In this document: positions 11,682-59,287 of the stretch, piece by piece
How the letters are laid out: each line of letters begins with the position of its first letter
How positions within the stretch are numbered: the first letter of the stretch is position 1
Source of the DNA: a virus
Direction: 5' to 3' (one strand)
Virus record (IMG/VR): IMGVR_UViG_3300029258_005166
Coordinates: 62,001-126,000 of that record
DNA: 64,000 bases
Notes under the pieces: generated by a model
Told to the model about the DNA's origin: nothing
The model's database searches: none
What the model saw: the letters and a program-made list of their open reading frames with translations, nothing else
Position numbers and translations under genes: made by a program

Positions 11682-12260
11682 ATGGGTATGACGCATATAA
11701 TTAGTCCCAAAGTGAATAACAGACAGAAAGATTTCATTATCGGCACGATTTTGGGTGGATCATCAATTGTAAAGCCATCAAAAGGCAAAAATTGCTATCT
11801 ATCAATGCGAAGCAAGAACATTGAATGGTTGCGATTCAAAGCCACAGAATTGGTCCATTTGGCTTCTAATGCTCCCATTACCAAAGAGAAAACAAATCGA
11901 TGGCATTCGATTTGCTATCCAATTTTCAATGAATTTAGGGAGATGTTTTATGATAACAGAGGCCGTCGAAGGTTACATTTGGACAACTTGAGTTTACTGA
12001 GGGACATGGCTTTGGCCGTTTGGTTTGGCGATTGTGGCACTTTTTCGCGAGGTCATGCAATCATAAATACCCATATCTGGAAGAAAAAAGGCACAGAAAC
12101 TATCCATGAGTATTTCACTTGTCTAAGCTTTGATTCTTCGATCATTAAGCAACGCAACAACTATAGGATCAAGTTAGACCAACACTCCTCAGAGAGCCTT
12201 TGGAGGCTCATTGGTCCTCATATGCCTACGTTTATGCCGTTTGCTAGCCACCAAAGATAA
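11682..12260 (+). CDS. LAGLIDADG-type homing endonuclease, both acidic motifs altered
   Basis: 192 aa, the size of the two-motif LAGLIDADG_2 family. Motif 1 reads FIIGTILGGSSIVKP where GDGS is expected, and motif 2 reads LAVWFGDCGTF where DDG is expected, so the metal-binding acid appears lost in the first and shifted in the second. Other family features are intact (SMRSKNIEWLRFKATEL and the segment FYDNRGRRRLH). I infer a decayed or maturase-like copy. Its 3' end overlaps the CAP-lipoprotein gene by 17 bases on the opposite strand. Confidence 0.8.
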   Translation: MGMTHIISPKVNNRQKDFIIGTILGGSSIVKPSKGKNCYLSMRSKNIEWLRFKATELVHLASNAPITKEKTNRWHSICYPIFNEFREMFYDNRGRRRLHLDNLSLLRDMALAVWFGDCGTFSRGHAIINTHIWKKKGTETIHEYFTCLSFDSSIIKQRNNYRIKLDQHSSESLWRLIGPHMPTFMPFASHQR

Positions 12261-23967: not shown

Positions 23968-24707
23968 ACGACTTGTGATTTGATGTTGGAAATTACTTCT
24001 TGATGAAGTCTCGCAACCTTGATCCGTTGTTTGTTTCTGTTCTGCCCGCCTTTCTTTCTCCGAGAAAGTATACGTTGGGCTTTATTCAACCTTCTTTCAT
24101 GCTTTCTTAATACTCGTTCGTTTCCGATTGTTGTCCCATCGGACAATGTAGCAAATGTTTTCAGACCTACATCTATGCCAACAACATTGTCTGTGTTTGT
24201 ATTTGGTCGTTTGATTTTTAGTTCGCACAAAACTGAACAATACCACTGGTCGCCATCTTGTTTAACAGTGATACTTTTGACTTTACCTTTATATGGTCTG
24301 TGTTTAACCCATTGAACTTCGCCAATCTTTGGAATGAATACAAACCTTTTGTTGAGACGAAACTTCTGTGGAACAGTTAAACCATCTTGATATTTCTTTT
24401 TCTTGTGTTTGGGAAACTCACGGATGCCTGCAATGAAGTCTTTTAATGCTCTATCAAAAAACCTGCCCACTTGTTGAAGTGATTGGCTAAACGTGAGTCC
24501 GAGAAAGTCATGTTCTTTTTTGAGTTTAGGGATGGAAGTAATGAGTTCGTGAGCAAATACGAACTTACCTGTGGTTTCATACTGCCGCTGGTTCATATCA
24601 AGAAACCTATTCCAAAGGAAACGGCAGTTTCCACATTGTTGTTTTAATTGTTGTTCCTGTTTTTTCGTTGGATACAACCTATATCTGTATGCTCTTAATA
24701 TCTTCAC
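23964..24707 (-). pseudogene. tnpB: TnpB N-terminal part (split frame)
   Basis: 247 aa beginning MKILRAYRYRLYPTKKQEQQ, a standard TnpB start. It includes the first RuvC Asp (NVVGIDVGLKTFATLS) and the arginine-rich segment before the expected second motif, then stops at TGA after NIKSQVV. The rest continues in another frame (23518-23967). Its ATG overlaps the tnpA stop by 4 bases, the usual arrangement in IS605 elements with tnpA first. Confidence 0.88.
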
Positions 24708-25135
24708 TCTTCCTCATCAAACTCTTTTTGCTCTTGAATGTATCCTTTAATTGTATCAGCACTGACAAACCCAATCGTGCTAATGAATTTTCCTTCTGAC
24801 CACAATGAACCGCAACGTGAGTAGAAATTTTTGAGTGCATAGAAATTCTTAAACAACTCAATGGCTGATATACTCTTGAAAGTTCGCACAATATCTGATG
24901 GGGCAACCGTTGGTTTTGCACCTATGAAAAGATGCACATGGTCAGGCATGACTTCCATCTCTATAATTTCATACTCATACTTCTCGGCAATTTGTTGGAA
25001 GATTTCTTTCAGTTCTTTTGCTACATCACCTTTCAACACTGAAAATCTAAACTTTGGACACCACACAAGATGATATTGGCAAAGATAGACACAGTGGTTA
25101 AGTGCTTTGTATTTCTTCTTGCGTTTCTTGCTCAT
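24704..25135 (-). CDS. tnpA: IS200-type Y1 transposase TnpA
   Basis: 143 aa, normal length. The HUH metal motif is MPDHVHLFIG, and the catalytic tyrosine is in SADTIKGYIQEQ. Known: it cuts and rejoins single-stranded DNA at the element's subterminal hairpins. Its cognate TnpB downstream is split. It could also mobilise the two other TnpB elements of the window in trans, since their right ends share the same hairpin-plus-GAC or CAC layout (inference). Confidence 0.96.
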   Translation of the reverse strand: MSKKRKKKYKALNHCVYLCQYHLVWCPKFRFSVLKGDVAKELKEIFQQIAEKYEYEIIEMEVMPDHVHLFIGAKPTVAPSDIVRTFKSISAIELFKNFYALKNFYSRCGSLWSEGKFISTIGFVSADTIKGYIQEQKEFDEEE

Positions 25136-29154: not shown

Positions 29155-29424
29155 TCAAATTTTAGTAAGATCAAAAGAGGTCCATTTGAATGGATTTTTA
29201 AGTCGGGCTAGGTCCTTTGGATCGGCTATGCCGGGACGAACCATTTTCAAAGGTTTTTGGCTGTATTCAATGTCGTAATATGTTACAAAATCGGCAGCGG
29301 TAGGCGTCACGGCCAGAGGAGGATAATTGCCCAAAGTATCCCCAATGTCGGTGTATAAACCAAGTCTTGCACCGGTTCTAGTATCGTTTTCAGTTAGCCA
29401 CAATCGAAAATTAAGGAATTTCAT
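29155..29424 (-). CDS. Small protein with capsid-targeting-like N-terminus
   Basis: 89 aa. Begins MKFLNFRLWLTEND, which fits the tag pattern shifted by two residues. The rest is short and beta-like (ARLGLYTDIGDTLGNY; ADFVTYYDIEY; WTSFDLTKI). No known domain. Its ATG overlaps the end of the DUF3008-type gene upstream by 4 bases, so the two are coupled. Putative internal head protein. Confidence 0.72.
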   Translation of the reverse strand: MKFLNFRLWLTENDTRTGARLGLYTDIGDTLGNYPPLAVTPTAADFVTYYDIEYSQKPLKMVRPGIADPKDLARLKNPFKWTSFDLTKI

Positions 29425-29957
29425 ATCATTTTTTGGAGATCGTTCAAAGCTCCATGACCTCCACCTCCCGGAGCCGAAGGCCCAGTAATTAAATATCGTT
29501 TCTGTAAATCTGGATCAGTTGTACCTATCGCTGCATCTATATCAACAGGCTGAATGCCTACATTTCTTAAACGATCAGAAATGTCTTGCAAAACACTTGG
29601 GTTCACCGGCCACTGATTGTTTTGGGCTAGTCTTTCAAGATCGAAGATAACCTTTTGAACTATATCGTTTTTGTCTGTTCCCTGAGGAGGTATAGCAGTA
29701 TCATCGGGACCATAAATTGGTCCTGATGATACCTCGTTCCTTCTTTTTAACCATTCTGAAAAAGTAACAAACCATTCGTTTTTTTTGCGTGGGAGGCCTT
29801 TTCTTTTTGTTTTAGCGAAATGCCGAAGTTGTTTTGCCGACATACTGTTATACATTTGTTTTGCTGCACCATATAAACTTCCTGGATCGATTTCTCCACG
29901 TTTGGCTGCTAAAGCCATTGCTGCTGCCTTTTGTTGTTGTTTTGATTCTGCTGGCAT
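29421..29957 (-). CDS. DUF3008-type domain fused to a tagged protein
   Basis: 178 aa. Residues 1-56 match the small phage DUF3008 family (QQQKAAAMALAAKRGE, LYGAAKQMYNSMSAKQLRHF, TKRKGLP). Directly after it comes WFVTFSEWLKRRNEV, which looks like the N-terminal capsid-targeting tag of other genes here but is now internal. The C-terminal 100 residues are helical with a Gly-rich end. This suggests fusion of a DUF3008 gene with a tagged gene. Function of the domain is not known. Confidence 0.75.
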   Translation of the reverse strand: MPAESKQQQKAAAMALAAKRGEIDPGSLYGAAKQMYNSMSAKQLRHFAKTKRKGLPRKKNEWFVTFSEWLKRRNEVSSGPIYGPDDTAIPPQGTDKNDIVQKVIFDLERLAQNNQWPVNPSVLQDISDRLRNVGIQPVDIDAAIGTTDPDLQKRYLITGPSAPGGGGHGALNDLQKMI

Positions 29958-29964
29958 GATGTTC

Positions 29965-30504
29965 CTATTTTCGTTGAAAAAGAGAAATGGTTGTCTTTGT
30001 GCCGTCCTTTGAACTAAAAATTATCTGGTTGATTTTTATGGAGTTATTGTCAAAAGGATCAAGGCCATCATATTTCTTACCCCTTCCTTTCTTGACGTAA
30101 GCAATAGTTACATGAGGTTTGTAGATTGGATGACTGCTGGTATACTTTAAGCTATCTCTTAGTTTCGCATTCAATTTGTGCAAATCAGGACTACGAACAT
30201 CAATTTTAATTACATCATATTCATCATCTGAAAACAAAGATATTTTTCCCAATTTTATGTTTATGGGCTGAATACTCTTTAAGAGTTTTTTGACGGCATC
30301 CGGCTCGGAATCGTGGATTCCGTAAAGAACCGTGGCATGAATTTCATCTTCTCTTCCGAGTTCATGTAATTCATTATCTGGAATGTGAACCTTTCCCCAT
30401 TTGATGATTTTATTTGCAAGAGCATGGGGTAAATTAACTTGTGTCGAGGAAAAGTCGTAGTTTGTGTTCTTCTTTTCTTGTAAAAATTGCTGCCAAGTTT
30501 TCAT
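29965..30504 (-). CDS. 2H phosphoesterase with capsid-targeting-like N-terminus
   Basis: 179 aa. The N-terminus MKTWQQFLQE is nearly the T4 internal-protein tag, and gp21-type cleavage after the Glu would free the domain. The two catalytic motifs of the 2H family are present: EIHATVLYG (His56, Thr58) and KPHVTIAYV (His131, Thr133). Known: 2H enzymes hydrolyse cyclic or 2',5'-linked nucleotides, and T4 uses one (Acb1) to destroy CBASS signals. Inferred: a packaged enzyme injected to blunt cyclic-nucleotide defences on arrival. A TATATAAAT box stands directly before the ATG. Confidence 0.88.
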   Translation of the reverse strand: MKTWQQFLQEKKNTNYDFSSTQVNLPHALANKIIKWGKVHIPDNELHELGREDEIHATVLYGIHDSEPDAVKKLLKSIQPINIKLGKISLFSDDEYDVIKIDVRSPDLHKLNAKLRDSLKYTSSHPIYKPHVTIAYVKKGRGKKYDGLDPFDNNSIKINQIIFSSKDGTKTTISLFQRK

Positions 30505-30506
30505 AC

Positions 30507-30515
30507 ATTTATATA
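30507..30515 (-). promoter_or_regulatory. Late-promoter-like box (TATATAAAT) before the 2H gene
   Basis: TATATAAAT ends 2 bases before the ATG at 30504 on the minus strand, with no ribosome binding site; it sits on the flank of the terminator at 30517-30553. Confidence 0.45.
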
Positions 30516-30516
30516 G

Positions 30517-30553
30517 GCACCTTTTCGCCCTTTGGGCGAAAAGGTGCTTTTTT
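30517..30553. terminator. Intrinsic terminator between divergent genes
   Basis: gcaccttttcgccc/gggcgaaaaggtgc with a ttt loop and a following T-run. It lies between two divergent starts, so it probably ends read-through from either side. Confidence 0.88.
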
Positions 30554-30554
30554 A

Positions 30555-30562
30555 ACTAAATA
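30555..30562 (+). promoter_or_regulatory. Late-promoter-like box (ACTAAATA)
   Basis: ACTAAATA ends 4 bases before the ATG at 30567, with no Shine-Dalgarno site between. Confidence 0.45.
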
Positions 30563-30566
30563 AGAT

Positions 30567-30917
30567 ATGGAATTTTGCAAATGGCTAGAAAATACAGAGT
30601 CCATTCACCCGACATTGGAACGGATTACGCAAGATATGTGCAAAGGAGGAATTTGCACTCCTTGCGAACTCAATAGCGGTTTGTGCGATCAATGGGCAAA
30701 TGAGGTTTTCGAAAGATTAACCGAAATGGGTATTGATGCCGAGATATGGTCCACCGTCTGGGAAAGATCTTATGCGGACCACATGTTTGTTAAAATCGGA
30801 AGTAAGTTTTATGACGCAGAAAATATAGATGGAGTAGATGACTATATGGAGCTTCCCTTTTTTCAGCGTTCTTTTGCTAAACGTGGCGTCCGAGAACCAG
30901 TCCACCGAATTATTTGA
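30567..30917 (+). CDS. Putative cysteine hydrolase with capsid-targeting-like N-terminus
   Basis: 116 aa. Begins MEFCKWLENTE, fitting the tag. The core has GLCDQWANEVFERL (Cys40 at a helix start), then ADHMFVKIGSKFYDAENIDG (His72, Asp83/Glu85) and a final PFFQR. Cys-His-Asp in this order and spacing is the layout of papain-like or transglutaminase-like hydrolases, but the fold is inferred from motifs only. If packaged, it could act on a host protein early after injection. Preceded directly by an ACTAAATA box. Confidence 0.75.
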   Translation: MEFCKWLENTESIHPTLERITQDMCKGGICTPCELNSGLCDQWANEVFERLTEMGIDAEIWSTVWERSYADHMFVKIGSKFYDAENIDGVDDYMELPFFQRSFAKRGVREPVHRII

Positions 30918-30923
30918 TTGCTG

Positions 30924-31121
30924 CTATTTTTCTTCCTTCTTTTTTTTCTCTTCATCCTCTTTTTCTTTCAAAAAAGAAGAGAAAGAGCGACCCCTACCTC
31001 TACCCTTGCCTCTGCCCTTACCTCGACCTCCTCGATCTAGATCATCTTCTCCGCATGGGCCTATTCCTCTTCCAGTACGAGGGCCTTCTCCTTCGGGACC
31101 AGTTTTGTCAAATCCAGGCAT
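30924..31121 (-). CDS. Small DUF5320-like Gly/Arg-rich protein
   Basis: 65 aa. The N-terminus MPGFDKTGPEGEGPRTGRG with a following GPCG matches the small DUF5320 family of bacteria and archaea. A Gly/Arg/Lys run (GRGKGRGKGRGRG) follows, then SFSSFLKEKEDEE, which again resembles the capsid-targeting pattern, and a Lys/Glu tail. A strong aaggag site lies before the ATG. The basic run could bind DNA. Function unknown. Confidence 0.7.
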   Translation of the reverse strand: MPGFDKTGPEGEGPRTGRGIGPCGEDDLDRGGRGKGRGKGRGRGRSFSSFLKEKEDEEKKKKEEK

Positions 31122-31204
31122 GTTATTCTCCTTTTAGTTTATTCACAAATAGTTACCTTAAGTACATATCCCAACCTATTATATTTAATTGTATTTGTTT
31201 TTTC

Positions 31205-31238
31205 TTCTTGAAAAAGCCAAATTCTTGAAAAAGCCAAA
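31205..31238 (+). repeat. 17-bp direct repeat, two perfect copies
   Basis: TTCTTGAAAAAGCCAAA twice in tandem in the otherwise empty 31122-31299 gap. Confidence 0.85.
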
Positions 31239-31299
31239 CACCATCACTACTGTAGAAGTAGGATGAAATGGTAGAATTTGTGGAACACGGGAGATTCAG

Positions 31300-31476
31300 A
31301 TGACATATTTAGACGAGTTCTGTGAATGGTTGAAGAACCATCCAAACCATGAACCATTGCCACAAGCAATCGGAGAAGCCCTTGGTCATGGCTGTGGAAC
31401 CGATGATCCCGATTGGCAAAGGCTTGTAGAGCTTTGGAAGAAACGACACGAAACCCAGTGCAATTGTGACAAATAG
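31300..31476 (+). CDS. Small tagged protein (58 aa)
   Basis: ATG at 31300 with a gggaga site; stop TAG at 31474-31476. Begins MTYLDEFCEWLKN, fitting the capsid-targeting pattern (F-x-x-W-L). The remainder is short and soluble (IGEALGHGCGTDDPDWQRLV, then a His/Cys tail ETQCNCDK). Unknown function. Confidence 0.7.
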   Translation: MTYLDEFCEWLKNHPNHEPLPQAIGEALGHGCGTDDPDWQRLVELWKKRHETQCNCDK

Positions 31477-31512
31477 AGGAATGAAAAGAAACAATTTCTT
31501 TCCTCGCCTAAA

Positions 31513-31806
31513 TTAAGCTGTTCCCTTGATGAAATCGTGAAATCTTTTAATGGTGCCCTTCAATGTGGGTGTTACATTATAAGCTCGGTGTGTGTTAGTT
31601 ACATACCATGTTTTACCATTTATTGTTGATTTCCAAACTGCTGGTGTGAGATTTCCTTCAGAATGATGCCATACTGCTTTGGATCGCATTACTTGTTCTC
31701 GTTCTTCGGGAGTTAATTGTTTGCGGTTTTTCTTGAGTGTTTTGAAATTAGGTTCCTTTCGACCATCATGTTTTTCTTCTATTATCCATTCGTAGAAACT
31801 TCTCAT
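31513..31806 (-). CDS. Small tagged basic protein
   Basis: 97 aa. Begins [12 protein letters not shown], a close match to the tag. The core [20 protein letters not shown], then [20 protein letters not shown] and [14 protein letters not shown], is a conserved phage pattern I recognise from other large phages but cannot name. Basic overall. Upstream is gcatatataaaatc before the ATG. Probably an internal head protein. Confidence 0.75.
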
Positions 31807-31840
31807 GATTTTATATATGCTTTATTTGAGAAAGAAATTT

Positions 31841-32433: not shown

Positions 32434-33597
32434 ATGGAGCAAATAATGTATCTACAAGACATAGATGGTATTTTACCAGCCCAGAAAGTAAAAATCAAGT
32501 ATGATTGTAACGGCGGTTACGAGCGGTGCGGCAAGGAGTGGATGCTGAAGCTCGAAAACGCACAAAAGAACTTCGCCAATAACGACGGCAAGCATATTTG
32601 CCGATCCTGCCAAATCAGTAAAAAGAATCCCATGCGGGACAAAAAAGTACAGGAGAAGATCAAGGAAACCACCATGAAGAGGTATGGGGTATCTTGTGCC
32701 CTGAACACTCAGGAAAATATTGAAAAGCGAAAAAAGCTTTTTGAAAATGAAGAAAGAAAGACCGAGTGGAATCGAAAACGTCGAGAGACTTGCAGGAAGA
32801 AATATGGAGCCGACCATGCCGCCCAGTCGGATCAAGTTAAAAAGAAACAACGGCAGACCATGATGGAAAACTATGGTGTCGAGTTTCCATATCAGTCCGA
32901 AGAAATCATGGCAAAGATGAAAAAACACAATATGGAAAAGTATGGTGTTGAAAATGTTGCCCAGCTTCCAGAAGTTCAAATTAAGATGGCAAAGACGACT
33001 CTTGAAAAGTATGGAGTAGAGCGTTACAACGAATTGCCTGAAATGCGTGAATATTTGCGAGAGAATTGCCGTGAATGGCTGGCCGAGAGTTGGGCGAATC
33101 CTTGGGCCAAGGGGATTACGCGACCGGAGGAGTGGAATCAGAAGCAGAGGGAAACTGTTGCGGAGCTTGTGGCAAGAGGAGAATGGCACACGGGCGATAA
33201 AAACTCAATAAAAGGGCGGTATAGTTCCAAGAAATGCACAAAAAAAGATCCTTTGTTCAGATCTAGTTACGAACTTATAGTACATATATGGCTTGATGAA
33301 AACCGAGATGTTTTGGGCTACGAGTATGAGCCATATATGATTGCATATTACGATACTGAAGGAAAGCATAGATATTACTTTCCTGACTTTTTGGTGAAAT
33401 TCAAAAGAAGTCGGTTATTTTTGCTGGAGGTTAAAAATGACTATGCATTGAAGTTCGCGATCAATATCAGCAAGGATAAAGCGGCCAAAGAGTATGCATC
33501 TCAAAATGACTTGGATTACGAATTGTGGTCTAATCAAAAAATTAAAGAGCTTGGTATCGATCACTCTAATTTTCAGGAGCGGTACATTCTCTTCTAA
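32434..33597 (+). CDS. PD-(D/E)XK homing endonuclease with KYGV repeats
   Basis: 387 aa. Between residues 85 and 210 a motif of the form KYGV-x-x-x-x-Q recurs five times, spaced by helical linkers, a DNA-binding repeat array known from phage endonucleases. Residues 275-350 hold a compact nuclease core: FRSSYELIVHIWL, YYFPDFLVKFKRSRLFLLEVK (Asp and ExK). An N-terminal Cys pair (ICRSCQ) may bind zinc. The same nuclease core type is in the gene at 44020-44928. The internal ATG at 32446 has ggag upstream and is an alternative start. It sits between the small genes and the head module. Confidence 0.85.
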   Translation: MEQIMYLQDIDGILPAQKVKIKYDCNGGYERCGKEWMLKLENAQKNFANNDGKHICRSCQISKKNPMRDKKVQEKIKETTMKRYGVSCALNTQENIEKRKKLFENEERKTEWNRKRRETCRKKYGADHAAQSDQVKKKQRQTMMENYGVEFPYQSEEIMAKMKKHNMEKYGVENVAQLPEVQIKMAKTTLEKYGVERYNELPEMREYLRENCREWLAESWANPWAKGITRPEEWNQKQRETVAELVARGEWHTGDKNSIKGRYSSKKCTKKDPLFRSSYELIVHIWLDENRDVLGYEYEPYMIAYYDTEGKHRYYFPDFLVKFKRSRLFLLEVKNDYALKFAINISKDKAAKEYASQNDLDYELWSNQKIKELGIDHSNFQERYILF

Positions 33598-33689: not shown

Positions 33690-35129
33690 TCAGATCACAA
33701 AATTGGCAATGCTCAATCTTGCGTAAAACTTCGCTCCCTCCCTAAGCAACTTTTTGCCGTACCTGGTAAGTATACCCTTTCGAGGACAAAAGCTATCAGG
33801 ATCAAGGACGACCGGAGTCTGTGTCAGCGGAACGTAAGGACAATAAAAATATCCAGAGTCCATATAGCTGTCACCCTTGTAACCCATCAAGATTTGACCT
33901 GTTGGGAACAGAGGATCTTTGTAAAGTCGCCATCTGTTGTTCACAGTACCGACATATTGGATGCCGAGGCTGCTTGTGAAGGTCTCAGACGGAGCGGGTG
34001 CAAAACCGGCAGTTGCGGTCTCGAAGATCGAGGCAACTTCGGGGCTCGTTACGAGCCAGTTGCATCCACCGCGAAGAGTCTTACGGTGAACAATGTTGGT
34101 AACTTCAACGACCTTGACATAGAGGCTTTCATACTTTTCCTTGATTGTGTCACCAAGGGCGGTATTAAAGTCCCAAGAAGCAACCGTACCAGCGTTGTTA
34201 CGAAGGTCGGTCAAAACTTCACGGTCAATTTCCAGGTTGATTTCTTGAGCCAAGACGGCGGTCAGTTCGGCCTCGGCATCAAGGTTATGTTGTGAACGAA
34301 GGTCCTGTTGGGCCTCGTAGCTCCAGACAGCCTTGAGCTTTCTTGTCTTAGCAGCGATTTCTTCACTTTCAACAACCAGATTGATTTCTGGGAGATCTTG
34401 GTTGCATTCCATGTTGTATTCATACGACATGATGCAGTAGTTCTCACCAGGGGCACCGTTCCAGGTCAAGGTCATCTCGCCTGTGGTTAGGTCGAGAGTA
34501 CCGGCAGTAACCTTAGGAGCCGGGGCACCAATGTCCGTGAAAGTAAAGTTGCTATTTTCGTCAACGACGAAGGTTTGAACTGCCACTCCACCATCATAGA
34601 TGGTTCCAGTGATTGTTCCAGCCAAAATTGGAGTGTGTTCCAAGGGGCTGTAAACAGAGAGAACATCAGCACCATCATCTGTAGATGTGGTTTCGTTCTC
34701 AACCAACTGGTGGGAGTAGTAAATCGACAGATTGGCATCACCAGAAGCCAACTGTTGGAGGGAGTTAGCATCATCGCCAGGGAATCCAGCGTTGTTGTCG
34801 GCTCCTCTCACGTCGCCCTTGTTAGTCGAATAACGGAAACGCAGATAGTAGACCAAACCAGTTGGGCCGAGCAACGGTTGAACCGAGACGACCTTATTGG
34901 CGATCAACTGCGGGTAAATTCGTCTAACCAAAGGAATTGAAATTCGCTTAAACTGAGCGATGTCGCCTGTGTCTGTTGAAACTTCGTTCATTAGACGCTG
35001 ATTTTCTAGAAGAACGGCGGTGCAAGAACGAGTGTAACGATCTTCAATGCCGTTCAGCAAACCAGTCTCGCCCCAACGACTTTCCATGACGGCGGCTTCA
35101 TTCAGAAATTTTGCATTTGCTGATTGCAT
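33690..35129 (-). CDS. Major capsid protein (T4 gp23-like)
   Basis: 479 aa, in the standard place after scaffold and prohead protease genes. Recognisable gp23-family segments: ISIPLVRRIYPQLIANKVVS, QPLLGPTGLVYYLRFRY, LKAVWSYEAQQDLRSQHNLD, and VTSPEVASIFE. The N-terminus contains AKFLNEAAV, a plausible prohead-protease cleavage or core-binding site of the same form as the tags on small proteins. It forms the capsid lattice. Known: gp23 is cleaved near its N-terminus during maturation. A strong aggag site precedes the ATG. Confidence 0.93.
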   Translation of the reverse strand: MQSANAKFLNEAAVMESRWGETGLLNGIEDRYTRSCTAVLLENQRLMNEVSTDTGDIAQFKRISIPLVRRIYPQLIANKVVSVQPLLGPTGLVYYLRFRYSTNKGDVRGADNNAGFPGDDANSLQQLASGDANLSIYYSHQLVENETTSTDDGADVLSVYSPLEHTPILAGTITGTIYDGGVAVQTFVVDENSNFTFTDIGAPAPKVTAGTLDLTTGEMTLTWNGAPGENYCIMSYEYNMECNQDLPEINLVVESEEIAAKTRKLKAVWSYEAQQDLRSQHNLDAEAELTAVLAQEINLEIDREVLTDLRNNAGTVASWDFNTALGDTIKEKYESLYVKVVEVTNIVHRKTLRGGCNWLVTSPEVASIFETATAGFAPAPSETFTSSLGIQYVGTVNNRWRLYKDPLFPTGQILMGYKGDSYMDSGYFYCPYVPLTQTPVVLDPDSFCPRKGILTRYGKKLLREGAKFYARLSIANFVI

Positions 35130-35143
35130 TTTTCTCCTTAGTG

Positions 35144-36049
35144 TTATTTATCTTTTTTAGTTCCCGCGAGGACCTGCATTTGAGCAAGCACGGCAGGATC
35201 TAAAGTCTCTACTAACGTTTTATCGGCCTGTGGCTTTTCTTCTGGAAGCTCTTCTTTATGCTCCTGGATGAGTTCACCATCGGCTGTTCGTCCTCTCCCC
35301 GTTGCGTTCTTCGCTTTCTGCTCTCTTTCTTGTCTGTTCTCGGTAGACTCAGTGAGCATTTGCTCTTGTTGACGGCAAACCTCATTGAGCTTTCCATTCT
35401 CTGTGCCAAGTCGAATATTTCTGGCTTCTAGGATCTTTACTTGGCTTCTCAGATCCTCAATAGCTTGTTGTGCTTCCTCAAGTTTTGCGTTGCAAACACT
35501 GTTGTAGTCGTCATCGGAAAGATAAGTAGAAACACTATCGATAACCTTATCCAGAACGACCTTGTGTTCAACTAGACGCGGGTCACTTAGAACATCACGA
35601 CGGACGCTTTCAGCGATTTCGGGTCCTTTATACTCCAAGAACTGGTGAATCTTGTTGATGAAGTATTCACGCATCTCCTGCAACTTGGTATTGAACTCTT
35701 CATACATATCGACATCGAGATTATCATTCTTTGCCTTTTCGGCTTGAAGCATCTCGAAAGCCTCTTGGTAGCCATCATTCATCGCAGATTCAAATTCTTT
35801 CTTCTGCGTTTCAAGACGACCACGAAGGTCCTTAATAATTGCGTAAGCTTCTTGGTATCCCTGCTCGCCGGTTTGTTCAGCTTGCTTAAGCTCTTCTGTA
35901 AACTCTTGATAGGCTTCATGAAGCTTTTCGGTATACTCCTTCTCCATGTCAGTCTTCGCTGTTTCCAGTTCGCTTTGCACGGCCTCGGTAACCTCCGCGA
36001 CTTGCTCTTCAGGAAGTAATTTGCTCAACGCTTCAACGATTTTTTCCAT
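35144..36049 (-). CDS. Prohead core scaffold protein (T4 gp22-like)
   Basis: 301 aa, highly charged and almost wholly alpha-helical, rich in Glu/Lys/Gln with long coiled-coil stretches (SELETAKTDMEKEYTEKL; EQGYQEAYAIIKDLRGRL). It lies between the prohead protease and the major capsid protein, as gp22 does. Known: the scaffold core is built first and then degraded by the protease, leaving space for DNA and the internal proteins. The C-terminus is Glu/Pro/Lys-rich (EEKPQADKTLVE). It would be the likely docking partner for the tagged proteins in this window. Confidence 0.88.
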   Translation of the reverse strand: MEKIVEALSKLLPEEQVAEVTEAVQSELETAKTDMEKEYTEKLHEAYQEFTEELKQAEQTGEQGYQEAYAIIKDLRGRLETQKKEFESAMNDGYQEAFEMLQAEKAKNDNLDVDMYEEFNTKLQEMREYFINKIHQFLEYKGPEIAESVRRDVLSDPRLVEHKVVLDKVIDSVSTYLSDDDYNSVCNAKLEEAQQAIEDLRSQVKILEARNIRLGTENGKLNEVCRQQEQMLTESTENRQEREQKAKNATGRGRTADGELIQEHKEELPEEKPQADKTLVETLDPAVLAQMQVLAGTKKDK

Positions 36050-36762
36050 TACTTTAACCTCGCTTGAATTTCTTTGGCCTTTTTATGAACAATGCCACCA
36101 AGGCAAGCCTTTACCAGTTCTGCATTAACTGTATATAAGCCGCTGGACTCATTTTTAACAACATCGTCGTGTTGTTCGGGTGACACGTTTTCACGTTTGT
36201 TACTAACAATCTGTTTTTGAAAGGCTGCGTTTGTGCTTGGATCGGCCACAGCATCAAACGTAATTAGCTTGTACGACTCACCAATTACGAGGACTCCATT
36301 CTCATTAACCTTTCCATTTCCAACACCGCGACTACTGATACCAACTCTTACTCCATCGTTGAGCAAAGACTTGATAATTTTTCCCGCTGGTGTGTTAAGG
36401 ATTATTCCCTCACCCATCAGAGTCTTGCCATCCCACCAGAGTTTTGTGATCTTGTGGCAGGCCTTCTCAAAATGGATAATAGAGTCCGTTGGGTGATCCA
36501 GTTCACCGACTAAACCGCCGTTTTTAATAACTTCATCGAGTTTTTGAACGTTCTTGTTTAGTACCGCATACGGATACATCCTCTTGTTTTTGTTGACCGC
36601 TTCGGCTTCCTGGAATTTGCCCCTGAATTTAAGGGAACTTCCAACCTCGGTCGATTCGTGAAGTACCATCTCATTCAAGATAGCACCCACTGTTCCTCCT
36701 AGAATTAGTCGATCCTCATAGATCGTTCCGGGAGTCACATCATGCTCGATAAGCAATTCCAT
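36049..36762 (-). CDS. Prohead protease (T4 gp21-like)
   Basis: 237 aa from the ATG at 36762, preferred because gggagg stands 5 bases upstream. The serine-protease fold of the herpes assemblin type is visible: GLVGELDHPTDS with the catalytic His, VGISSRGVG with the catalytic Ser, and FDAVADPSTN. Known: gp21 cleaves after Glu in (L/I)-x-E motifs of scaffold, capsid and internal proteins. It overlaps the scaffold gene by 1 base. If the N-terminal tags in this window are targeting sequences, this enzyme removes them. Confidence 0.92.
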   Translation of the reverse strand: MELLIEHDVTPGTIYEDRLILGGTVGAILNEMVLHESTEVGSSLKFRGKFQEAEAVNKNKRMYPYAVLNKNVQKLDEVIKNGGLVGELDHPTDSIIHFEKACHKITKLWWDGKTLMGEGIILNTPAGKIIKSLLNDGVRVGISSRGVGNGKVNENGVLVIGESYKLITFDAVADPSTNAAFQKQIVSNKRENVSPEQHDDVVKNESSGLYTVNAELVKACLGGIVHKKAKEIQARLK

Positions 36763-36778
36763 AGAACCTCCCATTAGA

Positions 36779-38521
36779 TTACTGGTCAACGACTAAGTCT
36801 GGTTCCTTGCCGTGATTCATCTTGTACGTTTGAGGAGTCACAGCAGCGGGACAATAAGGATTTTGCAATGCTGGCCACGTATCACTACCGCCCCAGTGGG
36901 CTAGTTGATCCGAGTCCGTTTCAATTGCTTTCTCTCCTTTGATCTTGTAATCACCAAAAGGTGTTGGGACATATGGATTGTTCAAAGCTGGAAAGACATC
37001 AGGTCCACCCAGATTGCCATATGCTCGATTTCTCATGAGGTCTGCTTCGCCACCCTTGTAACTGGCTCCATCACTGGCAGGAGCAACATCTCCCCAGTCG
37101 CCACTAGCATCTGCGGCGGGAGAATACTTCTGACGTGCTTTGTCAGCCATTGCGGGATGGTCACCACTGACTGTGATGTGTGGTGTGTTGCTGACGTTCC
37201 AATCCTTCGTTTCCAGATTGGTTTCAACCAATGTCCACAGCCACTCAGCAGCAGATTCCGCAACCTCAAGAGTAGGTTCAACTTCTTGTTGAACGATGGG
37301 CAGAAGCTCGTTCAAGTGCATGGCGGCTTCCGCTCTCAGAGGAGCATTCTTTTGCTCTGTCGCTAATGTGTGAACGTGTCGAAGTGCTTCGTAAAGATCA
37401 ATAAAAACTTGCATTTCGAGGGTTACGTTCTCATCAAGTGATGGATAGAACTGGTCAACGACATTTTTGAAGACCAAGTAAGGATCTTCTGCATTCTCAT
37501 CGACCCTAGCACCAGCGAGTTTCATCACTTTAGCTACACGATCAACAAACGTGTGATGGGCTGTTCGCAGAATGCCTTCGGCCATGAAATCACACATTTG
37601 GTCGTCGTAGTTGCTTGCACCGGCCATTTCCAAAGCCGACTTGATTGATTCGGAAAGTTCGTCTTGAGTTAAGTAAATGACTTGTGGCCACTTGCCAATA
37701 ATGTTCTCAAGGGTTTCTTGCAGGCTGTTGTCGTCCGACAAAGCATTGTGCCGCTTAAGTTCAGCGACCGCCTGGGCGAATTGAGCGTCTTCCGAAAGCG
37801 TCTTTGCATTCATTCTCTTGCAAACACAGTCGGTGTTGAGAGTCTTCCAATCAAAAGAAAGGAGCTTCATTTCGTTTCTCAGTCGTGTAGTAGGTACACG
37901 AACACCAACCGGGTTGCCTCGCTCGTCATATCTGACTCGGGACTCGTTAATAACGGGTCCATGTTCTTTGTAGTCAATGTACTCGAAAACATGCTGGCAT
38001 ATCTGGCCCCAAGATTGAAGTACGTTCTCCTTACAGGAGAAAGGCCCACAGGGCTTCTTCTTCTTTTTCTTCTTGGCAATCTTGCCTAGTACCCCGCCTT
38101 TCGGGATCTCTATAGCACGTTCTTCTTTCCTTTCAATAAAGGTTCTGCGAGTTCTTGGGAGAGCTAGATATTCACTAAACAACTGGTTTGCCTTCTCTTC
38201 TTTGTCTTCCATCAAAGCATCGAGCATTTGAGCAACAATTTCACGTTGCTTTTTGTACTCGGTCTCTTCGTTAAGGACCAGTTCTTCAACATTATCAAAT
38301 TCAATGTGGTTGTTCTTGACCTGATAATTGGCATGGATGTAATTGCCATCGCATGTCTCATAAAGAACGTCATTGGGTCCAAAACAATGAAGCTGGGCAC
38401 AATTCAATTGCAGTGCCTTAGCTAAGATTGGAGCGGCTTCAGCCAGTTCGACTTCGGCGGACGATAGCGAATCCTCTTCGATTCTCTCAAAAACATCGTA
38501 ATTGATGAGTTTTTTCTTCAT
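36779..38521 (-). CDS. Large conserved structural protein of unknown role
   Basis: 580 aa, between the portal and the prohead protease genes. No recognised domain. The N-terminal 180 residues contain a Lys run (KIAKKKKKKKP) followed by CGPFSCKENVLQSWG; the centre (200-420) is helical; the C-terminus has two Gly/Pro-rich repeats of the form GG-x-D-x-(F/W)-PAL-(N/Q)-NPY at about 525 and 560. Position suggests a head or prohead component. ggagtaaagcgacc precedes the ATG. Confidence 0.85.
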   Translation of the reverse strand: MKKKLINYDVFERIEEDSLSSAEVELAEAAPILAKALQLNCAQLHCFGPNDVLYETCDGNYIHANYQVKNNHIEFDNVEELVLNEETEYKKQREIVAQMLDALMEDKEEKANQLFSEYLALPRTRRTFIERKEERAIEIPKGGVLGKIAKKKKKKKPCGPFSCKENVLQSWGQICQHVFEYIDYKEHGPVINESRVRYDERGNPVGVRVPTTRLRNEMKLLSFDWKTLNTDCVCKRMNAKTLSEDAQFAQAVAELKRHNALSDDNSLQETLENIIGKWPQVIYLTQDELSESIKSALEMAGASNYDDQMCDFMAEGILRTAHHTFVDRVAKVMKLAGARVDENAEDPYLVFKNVVDQFYPSLDENVTLEMQVFIDLYEALRHVHTLATEQKNAPLRAEAAMHLNELLPIVQQEVEPTLEVAESAAEWLWTLVETNLETKDWNVSNTPHITVSGDHPAMADKARQKYSPAADASGDWGDVAPASDGASYKGGEADLMRNRAYGNLGGPDVFPALNNPYVPTPFGDYKIKGEKAIETDSDQLAHWGGSDTWPALQNPYCPAAVTPQTYKMNHGKEPDLVVDQ

Positions 38522-38680: not shown

Positions 38681-38980
38681 ATGAAAACATTTACTAGCTA
38701 CATCAAGCTCCTAGAATCAGATGAGCTTGACACCCCAGAAAATCAAGACGATCTACTTGCAAAGCTTGTCCGACTGGCTTGGAGAAGATACGCACAAGAA
38801 ACGAAAGACTTCTTTTCCCAATTAGGAAGCAAAGATCCCGATATTAAAGATCTCCTAACAAAAGCCGAACGACCCACAGACGAAATGCCTCCAGATCGAG
38901 TGCCCGACGATCTGGGTGATGATATGGATGTCGTCGCACCACCCGCCGCAGATAGTAGTGCGGGATTACAAGAAGATTAG
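38681..38980 (+). CDS. Small acidic tagged protein
   Basis: 99 aa. Begins MKTFTSYIKLLESDE, a good tag match. Helical middle (LAKLVRLAWRRYAQETKDFF) and an acidic Pro/Asp-rich C-terminus. A atatttatag box lies about 40 bases upstream. Faces the minus-strand head genes and ends at a terminator. Putative internal protein. Confidence 0.72.
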   Translation: MKTFTSYIKLLESDELDTPENQDDLLAKLVRLAWRRYAQETKDFFSQLGSKDPDIKDLLTKAERPTDEMPPDRVPDDLGDDMDVVAPPAADSSAGLQED

Positions 38981-39023: not shown

Positions 39024-39251
39024 TTATCCCTTTCCCTTTGGATTTTTACCTTTCTTAAGGTTTTCCTTGTGGATGTCTCCCTTTTTGAATCTCATCGCTA
39101 GAGCTTTTCTCCTGGGAGTACAGGTTTTCTTTGTCATTGGTGTGCAGTATCCCTCATGTTCGGGATCGACAGCCTTTTGAATCCATTTTTTCTTGGCTTC
39201 GTCAAGAAGTTCAGGATCGATTTCTTCTAAAAAGTCGTTAAAATTTCTCAT
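39024..39251 (-). CDS. Tagged copy of a common small phage protein
   Basis: 75 aa. Begins MRNFNDFLEEIDPE (tag), followed by KKWIQKAVDPEHEGYCTPM, then TKKTCTPRRKALAMRFKKGD, a conserved small Cys-containing phage protein normally found on its own. So the tag has been added in front of a separate module. The basic C-terminus fits DNA contact. Its start overlaps the portal stop by 4 bases, so it is made with the portal. Confidence 0.82.
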   Translation of the reverse strand: MRNFNDFLEEIDPELLDEAKKKWIQKAVDPEHEGYCTPMTKKTCTPRRKALAMRFKKGDIHKENLKKGKNPKGKG

Positions 39252-48652: not shown

Positions 48653-48967
48653 ATGAACAAGTATACTTTGGTTCGAAACCTACCAGTAGCTAGATTCTAC
48701 TACCAGGGCCATCACACCCACCCAGTTCGCAGGGTTGTTGCAATCACCAACGAAACCAGAACTACGTTTACCGGCTACGAATTGAGAGAGGGTAGTGAGT
48801 TAAGGACGGGAGATTTGCCTGTCAAGACGTTCCGCAAAGACCGTGTTGCCGAAATCGGCCAAATTGACAAGCGTAGAGTTCTTAGAAGGAAGACCCCCAA
48901 AAGGAACCAGACCCAAACCACGCTGTCTAGGTCGAATCTACAAAGTCTGGTGATTGACGGCATTTGA
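48653..48967 (+). CDS. Small WYL_2-like protein
   Basis: 104 aa from the ATG at 48653, with aaggag 8 bases upstream. Beta-rich N-terminal half (VRRVVAITNETRTTFTGYEL), then a basic C-terminus (RRVLRRKTPKRNQTQ). Similar in style to the gene at 26900-27133. Nucleic-acid binding is a guess. Confidence 0.62.
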   Translation: MNKYTLVRNLPVARFYYQGHHTHPVRRVVAITNETRTTFTGYELREGSELRTGDLPVKTFRKDRVAEIGQIDKRRVLRRKTPKRNQTQTTLSRSNLQSLVIDGI

Positions 48968-48985
48968 TCCGCCCAATGGGGCGGA
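48968..48985 (+). terminator. Short GC hairpin after the WYL_2-like gene
   Basis: TCCGCCC pairs with GGGCGGA around an AATG loop; no T-run, so it may be only a stabilising hairpin before the stronger terminator at 49037. Confidence 0.5.
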
Positions 48986-49036
48986 AATGGCACCGTAGAG
49001 TGAGATCTGTGTAAAGCAACTGGTGCCTGTTGGAAG

Positions 49037-49074
49037 GCCCCACTCCCGGCGAAGCCGGGAGTGGGGCTGTTTTT
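49037..49074. terminator. Intrinsic terminator
   Basis: ggccccactcccggc/gccgggagtggggct with a gaa loop and ttttt. Confidence 0.92.
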
Positions 49075-49114
49075 ATGGATTCATTACTACATAATAAAAG
49101 TAGGAGAAAACGCT

Positions 49115-50062
49115 ATGACATATTTCTTGAACCCATTTCATGAAGATTTTTATGGGGTCTGGGTAATAGATGATAGAGCCCATCACCCCACCTTTCCATG
49201 CCGCAGAAATGCGGGCCGTGGGCATAACATTGTAGCCGCTTGGCATGAGCCCATTGGAGCGGTTCCCAAGACCTACGATCTTTCAGGTAACGACGCAGAT
49301 GGGAACCCGGTAAAGGATTTGACTCTTCAATTTGCGATAGGCAATGATTTTTTGGATTGGATGATACTGACCATCGATTTGACCGACGATTCAAATGTCA
49401 GTTTCACCGCCGTTCCCGCAGCAATGCAACCATGGCAGATCGTTGACATCTTGAATGCCCACGACACATTCCCCTCTTACTTTGAAGCTTCTATCGGACG
49501 CTTTGAAGACGAACAGCAGCCGAGGGACAGAATTTTGATTACACAAAAGCTCGGTGTTGAAAGAATGAAATTCTTCGTTGTCAAAGGTACGGCAGACGAG
49601 GTTCTGGGATTCAATGCTAGAGTCGGTATAGCGGAATTGCCGACATATTTTGCTCGACATACTGTTTTCAATCGAGATGCAACAACAGGTTTGGTTGCTT
49701 TTGAAGATGGTTGTAACGTATTGATTGAACTCGATCCTGCTGCCGCTGGCGGGGCTTCTGTTGTAGATGATAATCTCATCGATAATGCGGTGGATGCAAA
49801 AGGTCATAATTTGGGATACGATTCTAGTGTTGTCCGAGATGACTGGGAATTGGTCCAAGGCCAAAGTTCGACTTTCCTATTTTCCAAGGTTAGTGGGGCT
49901 GCTTCGGCTTCTACAACTACGACAATTGAATACCCTGCGGGTGCGAAAGTGGGCGATTTGGCTAAAAAAATCGTTGAAGAATTTGATGGTGGAGGGGCCT
50001 TATTACGGAAATTTATTATGCCTCATACGCTTACGAGCGGAGATTTGATAACTCCTCCGTAA
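49115..50062 (+). CDS. Probable virion structural protein
   Basis: 315 aa from the ATG at 49115 with a taggaga site. No signal peptide. Beta-rich, with many Gly/Thr/Asp (FLDWMILTIDLTDDSNVSFT, then a C-terminal GGGALLRKFIMPH). The sequence STTTTIEYPAG and the overall style suggest a phage tail-fibre, neck or surface protein. Starts its own unit after a strong terminator. No family recognised. Confidence 0.72.
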   Translation: MTYFLNPFHEDFYGVWVIDDRAHHPTFPCRRNAGRGHNIVAAWHEPIGAVPKTYDLSGNDADGNPVKDLTLQFAIGNDFLDWMILTIDLTDDSNVSFTAVPAAMQPWQIVDILNAHDTFPSYFEASIGRFEDEQQPRDRILITQKLGVERMKFFVVKGTADEVLGFNARVGIAELPTYFARHTVFNRDATTGLVAFEDGCNVLIELDPAAAGGASVVDDNLIDNAVDAKGHNLGYDSSVVRDDWELVQGQSSTFLFSKVSGAASASTTTTIEYPAGAKVGDLAKKIVEEFDGGGALLRKFIMPHTLTSGDLITPP

Positions 50063-54377: not shown

Positions 54378-54896
54378 TTATCTAGTCAAAACTGTCTTAT
54401 TTAAAGCCTCAATTCCCTTAATTTCAACCCAATGAAGAATATGAATATAGGGGCCATTCTTGAATTTTGCCTTTCGTTGTTGTTCGAATCTCAGGTATTG
54501 CGAGCCATGGTCACCAATATCTCTTAAATTGCCAGGATGCGGTGGCTTCTTGTTTTCTTCATACCAAGCCTTCTGTTGATCCTTAGACATTTCAGCCCAT
54601 TCTTCAAGACTCGGTGCGGGTTTTTCTTCCTCTTTTAGTTGAGGAAGTCTAATAGCGTAGCCTTTGGTAGTTTTTTTAATTGATTTGCTATTCTTTTTGT
54701 CATTGATGAGTTGGTATTCACAAAAAACTTCTGAAGCTGGCTCGGTGCTTTTCCCACTTTTATGTAATACCCAAACAGGAACAGACACTCCCATTGTAAT
54801 AATTGACTCTCCTTCAATGAGATCGTAGCGTTCTTTTCTGGTTAAAAAAATATTGTGAAGAACCGTTAGTACAATTTTATTGTCTGGAGCAATCAT
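54378..54896 (-). CDS. Hypothetical protein
   Basis: 172 aa. Mixed alpha/beta, polar, with a central Lys/Ser-rich linker and a segment SLEEWAEMSKDQQKAWYEEN. No motif recognised. It lies 4 bases upstream of the tagged gene at 54373, so they are one unit. ggaggt precedes the ATG. Confidence 0.68.
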   Translation of the reverse strand: MIAPDNKIVLTVLHNIFLTRKERYDLIEGESIITMGVSVPVWVLHKSGKSTEPASEVFCEYQLINDKKNSKSIKKTTKGYAIRLPQLKEEEKPAPSLEEWAEMSKDQQKAWYEENKKPPHPGNLRDIGDHGSQYLRFEQQRKAKFKNGPYIHILHWVEIKGIEALNKTVLTR

Positions 54897-57333: not shown

Positions 57334-57340
57334 TATTTAG
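57334..57340 (-). promoter_or_regulatory. Late-promoter-like box (CTAAATA) before the J-domain gene
   Basis: CTAAATA ends 5 bases before the ATG at 57328 with no Shine-Dalgarno site; the transcript would begin at or near the start codon. Confidence 0.45.
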
Positions 57341-58231: not shown

Positions 58232-59287
58232 ATGGCAATAGAATTTGAAAGATTTCTTGATTGGGCGGAACGTCGCTTTGGCGATATAGTTGTCAAGGGC
58301 GATGAAGTTAAAATCAATTCTATTTTCACTGAAGACCACAAACATCATATGTGGTGTAATCCCTATGGCGGAAAGCATGGAAGACCCAACGGAGTTTTTC
58401 ATTGTTGGAAAACTGATACCAAAGGTTCATTGGTTTCCTTAGTAATGCAGGTAGACAATTGCACTTATGAGGAAGCTCTAGATATTCTTGGGGGAGCCGA
58501 CACTAGGTTGTCGGAGCTAGAAAAAAAGGTCAACGAAATCTTTAGCAAGAAACCAGACCCCTCCCCTGTTGTTGAAACCAAACCATCCAAAATAGAACTT
58601 CCGCCCTTCACTTATCCTTTTGATGAACTGCCCTCCAACAGTTACTATCGAGTTAAGGGAGAGGTCTATTTATTTCAGCGTAAACTAAACACAAACGGAT
58701 TGATGATTTGCACGGCGGGAGAATTTAAGGACAGAATTGTTATCCCGTACTATGATCGTGAAGACAAACTTGTTTACTTCAACAGCAGATACATTGGCAA
58801 TTCCAACAAAGTGCTGAGATACCGAGGCCCAGATAAAGAGATAGGCATTGGCAAGGGTGATGTTCTCTTCATGCCGAAATGGCCCAAGGAAAGGCAACGT
58901 GTTTTTCTCGCGGAAGGCGAATTTGATGCTCTCTCCATTCAGCAGTCGGGCCACATGGCAGCCGCTTTTGGTGGTAAGGCTTTGACCGACGAACAAATCG
59001 TCATTCTACGGAATAATCTAATTACGCCAATTATTTGTTTGGATTCCGACAAAGCCGGAAAGGTTGGATTGAGGAGAATGGCCGAGATTCTTTTGAAGGC
59101 CGGATTTTCCGAATTTGGGTTTATCAGATCTCCCAAGGAACACAAAGATTGGAACATCCTCTTGCAGAAATTTGGGCCCAAAGTCTTATTCCATTACATT
59201 CAAAAAAACGTCAAATTTTACGAAGGCAGTCACCACCGAACGGATGGGGAATGGACCAACATGGCTTTGGAATATCGGGATCTGTAA
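58232..59287 (+). CDS. DNA primase (zinc-binding CHC2-like + TOPRIM)
   Basis: 351 aa. The N-terminal zinc-binding region shows HHMWCNPYGGKHGRPNGVFH, then CWKTDTKGSLVSLVM. The TOPRIM part shows VFLAEGEFDALSIQQSG and IICLDSDKAGKVGLRRMAE with its Glu and two Asp. Known: synthesises RNA primers for lagging-strand replication. The N-terminal MAIEFERFLDWAER recalls the capsid tags but is part of the primase fold. A sigma70-like promoter precedes it. Confidence 0.93.
   Translation: MAIEFERFLDWAERRFGDIVVKGDEVKINSIFTEDHKHHMWCNPYGGKHGRPNGVFHCWKTDTKGSLVSLVMQVDNCTYEEALDILGGADTRLSELEKKVNEIFSKKPDPSPVVETKPSKIELPPFTYPFDELPSNSYYRVKGEVYLFQRKLNTNGLMICTAGEFKDRIVIPYYDREDKLVYFNSRYIGNSNKVLRYRGPDKEIGIGKGDVLFMPKWPKERQRVFLAEGEFDALSIQQSGHMAAAFGGKALTDEQIVILRNNLITPIICLDSDKAGKVGLRRMAEILLKAGFSEFGFIRSPKEHKDWNILLQKFGPKVLFHYIQKNVKFYEGSHHRTDGEWTNMALEYRDL

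Follow-up and report, generated by a model that had tools for sequence, protein, structure and literature searches.

A short N-terminal tag resembling the T4 capsid targeting sequence on many unrelated proteins of one phage clade

We analyzed a 64,000-nt stretch of viral DNA (hereafter the window; positions 62001-126000 of the 135,444-base IMG/VR record IMGVR_UViG_3300029258_005166) in which many small genes begin with a similar N-terminal motif, or tag. Feature coordinates are window positions unless stated otherwise. A sequence-only reading had listed 14 such starts and likened the motif to the capsid targeting sequence (CTS) of T4 internal proteins. A simple codon-usage caller written for this analysis, not a published one, gave 184 genes across the record, 87 of them in the window, and we defined the tag as M, zero to four residues, F/W, two residues, F/W/Y, L/I/M/V/F/C and then D/E within six residues. 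All 14 listed starts are the ATG codons of open frames, and 12 of them score at least 12 bits with a matrix built from the clade described below; those at 31300 on the plus strand (6.5) and 2832 on the minus strand (MLSFREMWKL, 5.1) are weak. The shared motif was confirmed in a looser form than first described: the literal M-[KR]-x-[FW] is too narrow, with the first aromatic falling at residues 3 to 6 and starts such as MEFCKWL, MILEFRKFL and MKFLNFRLWL lying outside it. Tagged genes, promoter-like elements and head genes are collected in Table 1.

Table 1. Features of the window; scores are those of the clade tag matrix
Feature	Position	Strand	Score or evidence
Tagged protein MIKFRDYFNYRE, 130 aa	2034..2426	-	14.1
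Tagged small protein MILEFRKFLEDE, 73 aa	3204..3425	-	16.1
Tagged protein MRTFNEFCTDW, 227 aa	5341..6024	+	13.5
Tagged protein MKFLNFRLWLTEN, 89 aa	29155..29424	-	16.8; G002 and LR756511 orthologues keep tag
Tagged 2H phosphoesterase MKTWQQFLQE, LigT/CPDase/Acb1-like	29965..30504	-	Pfam
Late-promoter-like TATATA, 5 nt ahead of 30504- ATG	30510..30515	-	
Terminator-like hairpin, 16 pairs, between divergent tagged genes 30504- and 30567+	30515..30549	+	
Late-promoter-like TAAATA, 4 nt ahead of 30567+ ATG	30557..30562	+	
Tagged protein MEFCKWLENTE, 116 aa	30567..30917	+	16.9
Doubtful tag MTYLDEFCEWLKN (31300+, MTYLDEFCEWL), 58 aa	31300..31476	+	just 6.5
Tagged small basic protein, 97 aa	31513..31806	-	17.0; TATATA box 31812-31817
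Major capsid protein, gp23-type	33690..35129	-	phrog_138 1e-80
Scaffold candidate at gp22 position	35144..36049	-	Position only; no family match
Prohead protease, gp21-type	36049..36789	-	phrog_207 6e-50; T4 homologue 1.4e-18
580-aa protein upstream of protease, possible core protein	36779..38521	-	Conserved position; no family match
Tagged protein MKTFTSYIKLLE in head module, strand opposite to neighbours	38681..38980	+	12.0
Tagged basic protein MRNFNDFLEE, 75 aa, directly after portal gene	39024..39251	-	17.9
Portal protein, gp20-type, 1260 aa	39248..43030	-	phrog_213 1.7e-62
Tagged small protein MKLSFKKWLE, 62 aa	54185..54373	-	17.3; TAGATA box 54379-54384
Tagged protein MKSFSQFMNE, 82 aa	55885..56133	-	14.7
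Tagged J-domain protein MDFRKWFEA, 397 aa	56135..57328	-	14.3; DnaJ 7.5e-12; TAAATA box 57334-57339

The tag is strongly enriched over N-termini in which residues 2-22 were permuted: 14 of the 87 genes in the window match, against 0.5 expected (maximum 3 in 1000 shuffles), as do 23 of the 184 on the whole record, against 1.0 expected (maximum 5 in 500 shuffles). The pattern occurs at just 2 of the record's 612 internal methionines. To guard against a motif fitted to its own data, the matrix used for this record was trained solely on six other genomes (leave-one-genome-out); 21 genes in the record score at least 10 with it, where 0.14 are expected. Together, these controls rule out chance or wrong start sites as the source of the motif. 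About ten of the record's tagged genes lie outside the window. In line with the small number of chance matches predicted by the shuffles, a few pattern matches (primase, aminotransferase and perhaps helicase genes) probably have this origin; in the window the regular-expression matches at 11994-12107 on the minus strand (37 aa) and at 58232 on the plus strand (primase) are probably of this sort. Identical tag residues share a codon with a frequency of 0.50, compared with 0.44 predicted by codon usage, and the conserved leucine is encoded by six codons. This diversity, close to the codon-usage prediction, indicates that the likeness lies at the protein level, and it rules out recent DNA duplication of a 5′ gene end.

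To define the clade we used this record and six related contigs or genomes (111-595 kb), including those designated G001, G002, G010 and LR756511; IMG/VR contains hundreds of relatives of the major capsid protein. Tagged genes number 20 of 847 (533 kb), 29 of 441 (343 kb), 18 of 175, 14 of 134, 31 of 295 and, in LR756511 (595 kb), 55 of 1007, and all six relatives stand well above their own shuffled means (0.9-6.6). A further sequence, G012, proved to be the same virus as the record (100% over 48 kb) and is uninformative on cargo turnover. The control phages gave the opposite result: T4, KVP40, S-PM2, phiKZ, Flavobacterium phage immuto and 200 kb of LR756508 are all at chance, and 40-kb samples of two 635-642 kb phages contain no tags. 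With six controls at chance and the relatives enriched, the tagged arsenal belongs to this clade, and a tag common to all T4-likes or all jumbo phages is ruled out. A literature search, with subscription papers and preprints mostly outside its reach, turned up no description of such a tag in huge phages.

Across 294 non-redundant candidates, the clade logo reads M-K-[TSN]-F-[KR]-[EQD]-[WFY]-[LV]-E-L-[KR]-E. The two aromatics are its most conserved positions; of 207 tags, 116 have them at residues 4 and 7, 46 at 3 and 6, and 24 at 5 and 8. Counting from the second aromatic (W), glutamate is enriched at W+2 as well as at W+5, immediately past which the information content falls from 0.6 to 0.1 bit. 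When the tagged proteins of the relatives were aligned (n=136), the consensus was MxxFxxWL and almost nothing else could be aligned, which bears out the proposal that the bodies behind the tag are unrelated. In an AlphaFold2 model of the tagged 2H phosphoesterase, the tag is a short helix predicted with low confidence (pLDDT about 50), separate from a folded domain that mostly reaches 95-98.

The carriers include several recognizable enzymes. Pfam matches substantiate both the 2H phosphoesterase and the J domain named by the sequence-only reading, and the 116-aa protein at 30567..30917, a cysteine-hydrolase candidate by eye, matched no Pfam family. Across the clade, Pfam also identifies tagged C39 peptidase, ART-PolyVal, CCA-adding enzyme, HAD_SAK RNA-repair phosphatase, GNAT and NADAR proteins. 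PADLOC matches on tagged proteins were set aside as mostly helicase/primase cross-hits. Outside the window, record position 48900-49556 (L004:8900-9556) encodes a sigma-70 family factor that has regions 2 and 4 and starts with the tag MMDFRDWLNDDP; single-protein scans for relatives of this factor and of the cysteine-hydrolase candidate found the same virus only. A tagged CCA-adding enzyme (tRNA nucleotidyltransferase) is kept in G001, G002, G010 and LR756511 (e.g. L189:680-2206) and, together with the HAD_SAK and 2H proteins, suggests that RNA repair could be delivered at injection.

The window's 2H protein has two HxT motifs and a 2H fold by structure model and fold search. Its Pfam scores are 35.2 bits for 2_5_RNA_ligase2 and 29.8 bits for Acb1 (cut-off 27); a profile search of PDB sequences ranks Acb1 first, and Foldseek ranks CPDase, Usb1 and LigT slightly above Acb1. 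It thus resembles the anti-CBASS nuclease Acb1 in its fold, its HxT motifs and an Acb1 match above cut-off, but differs in carrying the tag, in lying about equally near LigT and CPDase, and in its higher 2_5_RNA_ligase2 score. Since the LigT, CPDase and Acb1 folds fit about equally well, we treat cleavage of CBASS cyclic oligonucleotides as a candidate activity only.

The modularity of the tag, proposed by the sequence-only reading, is borne out by folds (NADAR, HAD and 2H) that occur both with and without it. Two NADAR proteins 55% identical to one another are tagged in LR756511 and untagged in G001, and HAD behaves likewise. In a tree of 52 2H proteins, nine are tagged, with five changes of state, though the tag may still have had a single origin there.

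Many tagged genes share a second feature, a T4-late-like TANATA box ending exactly 4-5 nt before the ATG, which is found at 70 of 183 tagged genes (38%) compared with 59 of 2604 others (2.3%). Several of the untagged genes with a box encode, by eye, tail/baseplate-like proteins or near-tags. Tagged genes less often have a Shine-Dalgarno motif, a difference that reaches significance in the two largest genomes. In T4, KVP40 and S-PM2, TATAAATA boxes lie mostly at least 23 nt upstream, and none of these phages has TANATA at 4-5 nt before an ATG. T4 late transcription starts about six nt below its box. A T4-like start below a box at this spacing would yield leaderless late mRNAs, the form predicted for transcripts of tagged genes with a TANATA box.

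The window also encodes a T4-type head module. Of the gp21, gp22 and gp23 homologues claimed for it, gp21 and gp23 are upheld by family matches, and gp22 is placed by position only, with no family match. A tagged gene lies between the portal gene and the gp21-22-23 block, and its syntenic counterpart is tagged in most relatives. The portal protein is 1260 aa here and 830-880 aa in most relatives, and its middle part matches helicase, terminase and ribonucleotide-reductase families, which suggests that the gene contains an intein. A homing-endonuclease-like gene (by eye) lies beside the capsid gene at 32434-33597; similar starts occur in several relatives.

These features invite comparison with T4, whose internal proteins do begin with MKTYQEFIAE. 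Mutations of this CTS map capsid targeting to residues 4 and 7 and processing to residues 8 and 10 (reviewed in PMC9026906). Like the CTS of IPI, IPII and IPIII (PMC9026906, PMC3012670), the clade tag is N-terminal and about 10 residues long, has aromatics at 4 and 7, a hydrophobic residue 8 and an acidic end, and stands on unrelated carriers in a genome with gp20, gp21 and gp23. It differs in having dozens of carriers where T4 has a handful, in its aromatics (Phe at residue 4 and, in most cases, Trp at 7, against Tyr and Phe in T4), and in having a canonical gp21 site in just a third of tags, and a predicted leaderless late promoter directly before the ATG. The T4-type acidic end is present, but its main glutamate lies two residues later than in T4 (W+5 versus +3). 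The clade tag and the T4 tag are, by sequence, alike but not identical.

The coincidence of the conserved aromatics with the T4 targeting residues, the unrelated bodies, the tagged and untagged homologues, the late-promoter-like boxes and the gp20, gp21 and gp23 homologues all support the CTS interpretation, and we consider it very probable that these phages employ a T4-kind capsid targeting sequence on a far larger scale, with the cargo packaged and injected. The ART-PolyVal cargo is counted in its favor since the injected T4 protein Alt belongs to the same ADP-ribosyltransferase class. Several observations weigh on the other side. The T4 internal proteins score just 5.3 with the clade matrix, owing to their Tyr and shorter acidic end; the sigma factor and the CCA-adding enzyme are not classical injected proteins; and in this record L/I-x-E, the gp21 cleavage motif (PMC9026906), occurs in 7 of 21 tags, the full hydrophobic-x-E-[AGS] site in just 1 of 21.

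The last of these concerns tag removal, which the sequence-only reading had placed just after the glutamate. We compared tags, defined only by positions ahead of the acidic end, with untagged N-termini as controls. After tags, L/I-x-E is found in 35% compared with 8% of controls (p=1e-24) and hydrophobic-x-E-[AGS] in 15% compared with 2.4% (p=1e-13). The residue following LxE at W+5 is A/G/S in 25 of 54 cases, against 23% expected; A/G/S is not enriched after Glu +3, so we rejected cleavage at the T4 position, and with a 1/21 count the full site cannot be the norm for this record. A gp21-type site thus appears to be favored in some tags, shifted two residues beyond its place in T4, but about two-thirds lack a canonical site, so that the processing half of the CTS likeness is only partly supported. 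The capsid-protein N-terminus M[NQ]ANA[KR]FLNE-A, kept among relatives, looks like a candidate site for the same gp21-type protease.

These data leave appreciable, though minority, room for capsid targeting without removal, in which the tag docks cargo and mostly stays uncleaved, its acidic end being part of the binding helix. In line with this, 65% of tags lack L/I-x-E, 20 of 21 in this record lack a full A/G/S site, and glutamate is enriched at W+2, where cleavage is unexpected; moreover, targeting and processing are separable in T4, where Asp at residue 10 stops processing but not targeting (PMC9026906). The strong enrichment of both site motifs after tags and the sharp end of conservation past the glutamate favor removal instead. 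We consider it improbable that the tag addresses some other phage structure (phage nucleus, replication centre, sliding clamp or chaperone). Short hydrophobic motifs can bind a clamp or chaperone, and some of the carriers work on RNA or in transcription (sigma-70, the CCA-adding enzyme, HTH); however, such an address accounts poorly for the match to the T4 targeting residues, the late-type promoters, the tagged gene within the head module among T4-type head genes, or a strictly N-terminal position with few residues at most ahead of the tag. We find it scarcely credible that translation initiation or the copying of a 5′ gene segment produced the shared start incidentally, with no targeting role. 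A 5′ element is indeed common to many tagged genes, and Shine-Dalgarno motifs are fewer among them, but many untagged genes with the same element lack the tag motif, one fold exists both tagged and untagged, amino-acid conservation goes with codon variation close to that expected from codon usage, and the residue-shuffling, internal-methionine and leave-one-genome-out controls all oppose it.

If the tag is a T4-kind capsid targeting sequence, cargo genes would be expressed late, many from their own TANATA promoter as leaderless mRNA. An N-terminal amphipathic helix of roughly 12 residues (M-K-[TSN]-F-x-x-[WF]-L-E-L-K-E) would dock on the prohead core via the two aromatics, and the shell would close around the docked cargo, retaining it in the head; the gp21-type protease may then remove the tag at L/I-x-E in part of the cargo. 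Injected with the DNA, the cargo would face the host's early defences and redirect the infected cell. Core binding, packaging and injection are steps we infer for the tagged proteins.

A large head set injected with the DNA is also known for the inner-body and ejection proteins of phiKZ and SPN3US, which have a related prohead protease that cuts after Glu (PMC5694885); here, the set is inferred from genes. Theirs are mostly long propeptides of about 80-127 residues with A/S-x-E sites (PMC5694885), and no such short N-terminal tag is seen in phiKZ, where the pattern is at chance. Similarly, polyvalent and MuF-fused effectors with ADP-ribosyltransferase, NADAR and 2H domains are predicted to be packaged and injected, but there the domains are joined to one another or to head proteins (PMC9503650), unlike the separate proteins with a short common tag described here. 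What is new here is the scale, the identifiable cargo and the promoter architecture.

We regard as evenly balanced the broader proposal of a general cargo-loading platform, in which a transferable cassette, made up of a late promoter, a leaderless ATG, a 12-residue head address and any protein, would equip each phage with about 20-55 different ready-made effectors acting before phage gene expression. Its cargo could include a sigma factor redirecting host RNA polymerase at once, which is what the tagged sigma-70 factor, if packaged, would be, and would include tRNA-repair enzymes and ADP-ribose and cyclic-nucleotide counter-defences. To our knowledge, the injected protein set of huge phages is mostly unknown, as most are uncultured. 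If the tag does address proteins to the head, sequence alone would suffice to list what each clade member injects, at about 2-12% of called genes, and many uncharacterized small proteins would become prioritized candidates for early counter-defence. The T4 CTS, so far described from a handful of internal proteins, would then be one end of a much larger system, and leaderless late genes offer a second testable prediction.

Other genomes yielded further short N-terminal motifs. Among T4 proteins, gp61.1 (MKTFKEFIKED, 54 aa; AF158101 18966-19130) scores highest with the clade matrix and may be an overlooked capsid-targeted protein. Three tandem genes at 180.9-183.6 kb of LR756508 start M+FKxLL, and two immuto genes (1803-2318 and 118632-118931) start MENFDLKKFLVEN; these are perhaps other short N-terminal tags in other T4-like lineages. 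Finally, the window contains a short IS200-like ORF, identified by eye, at 24704-25135.

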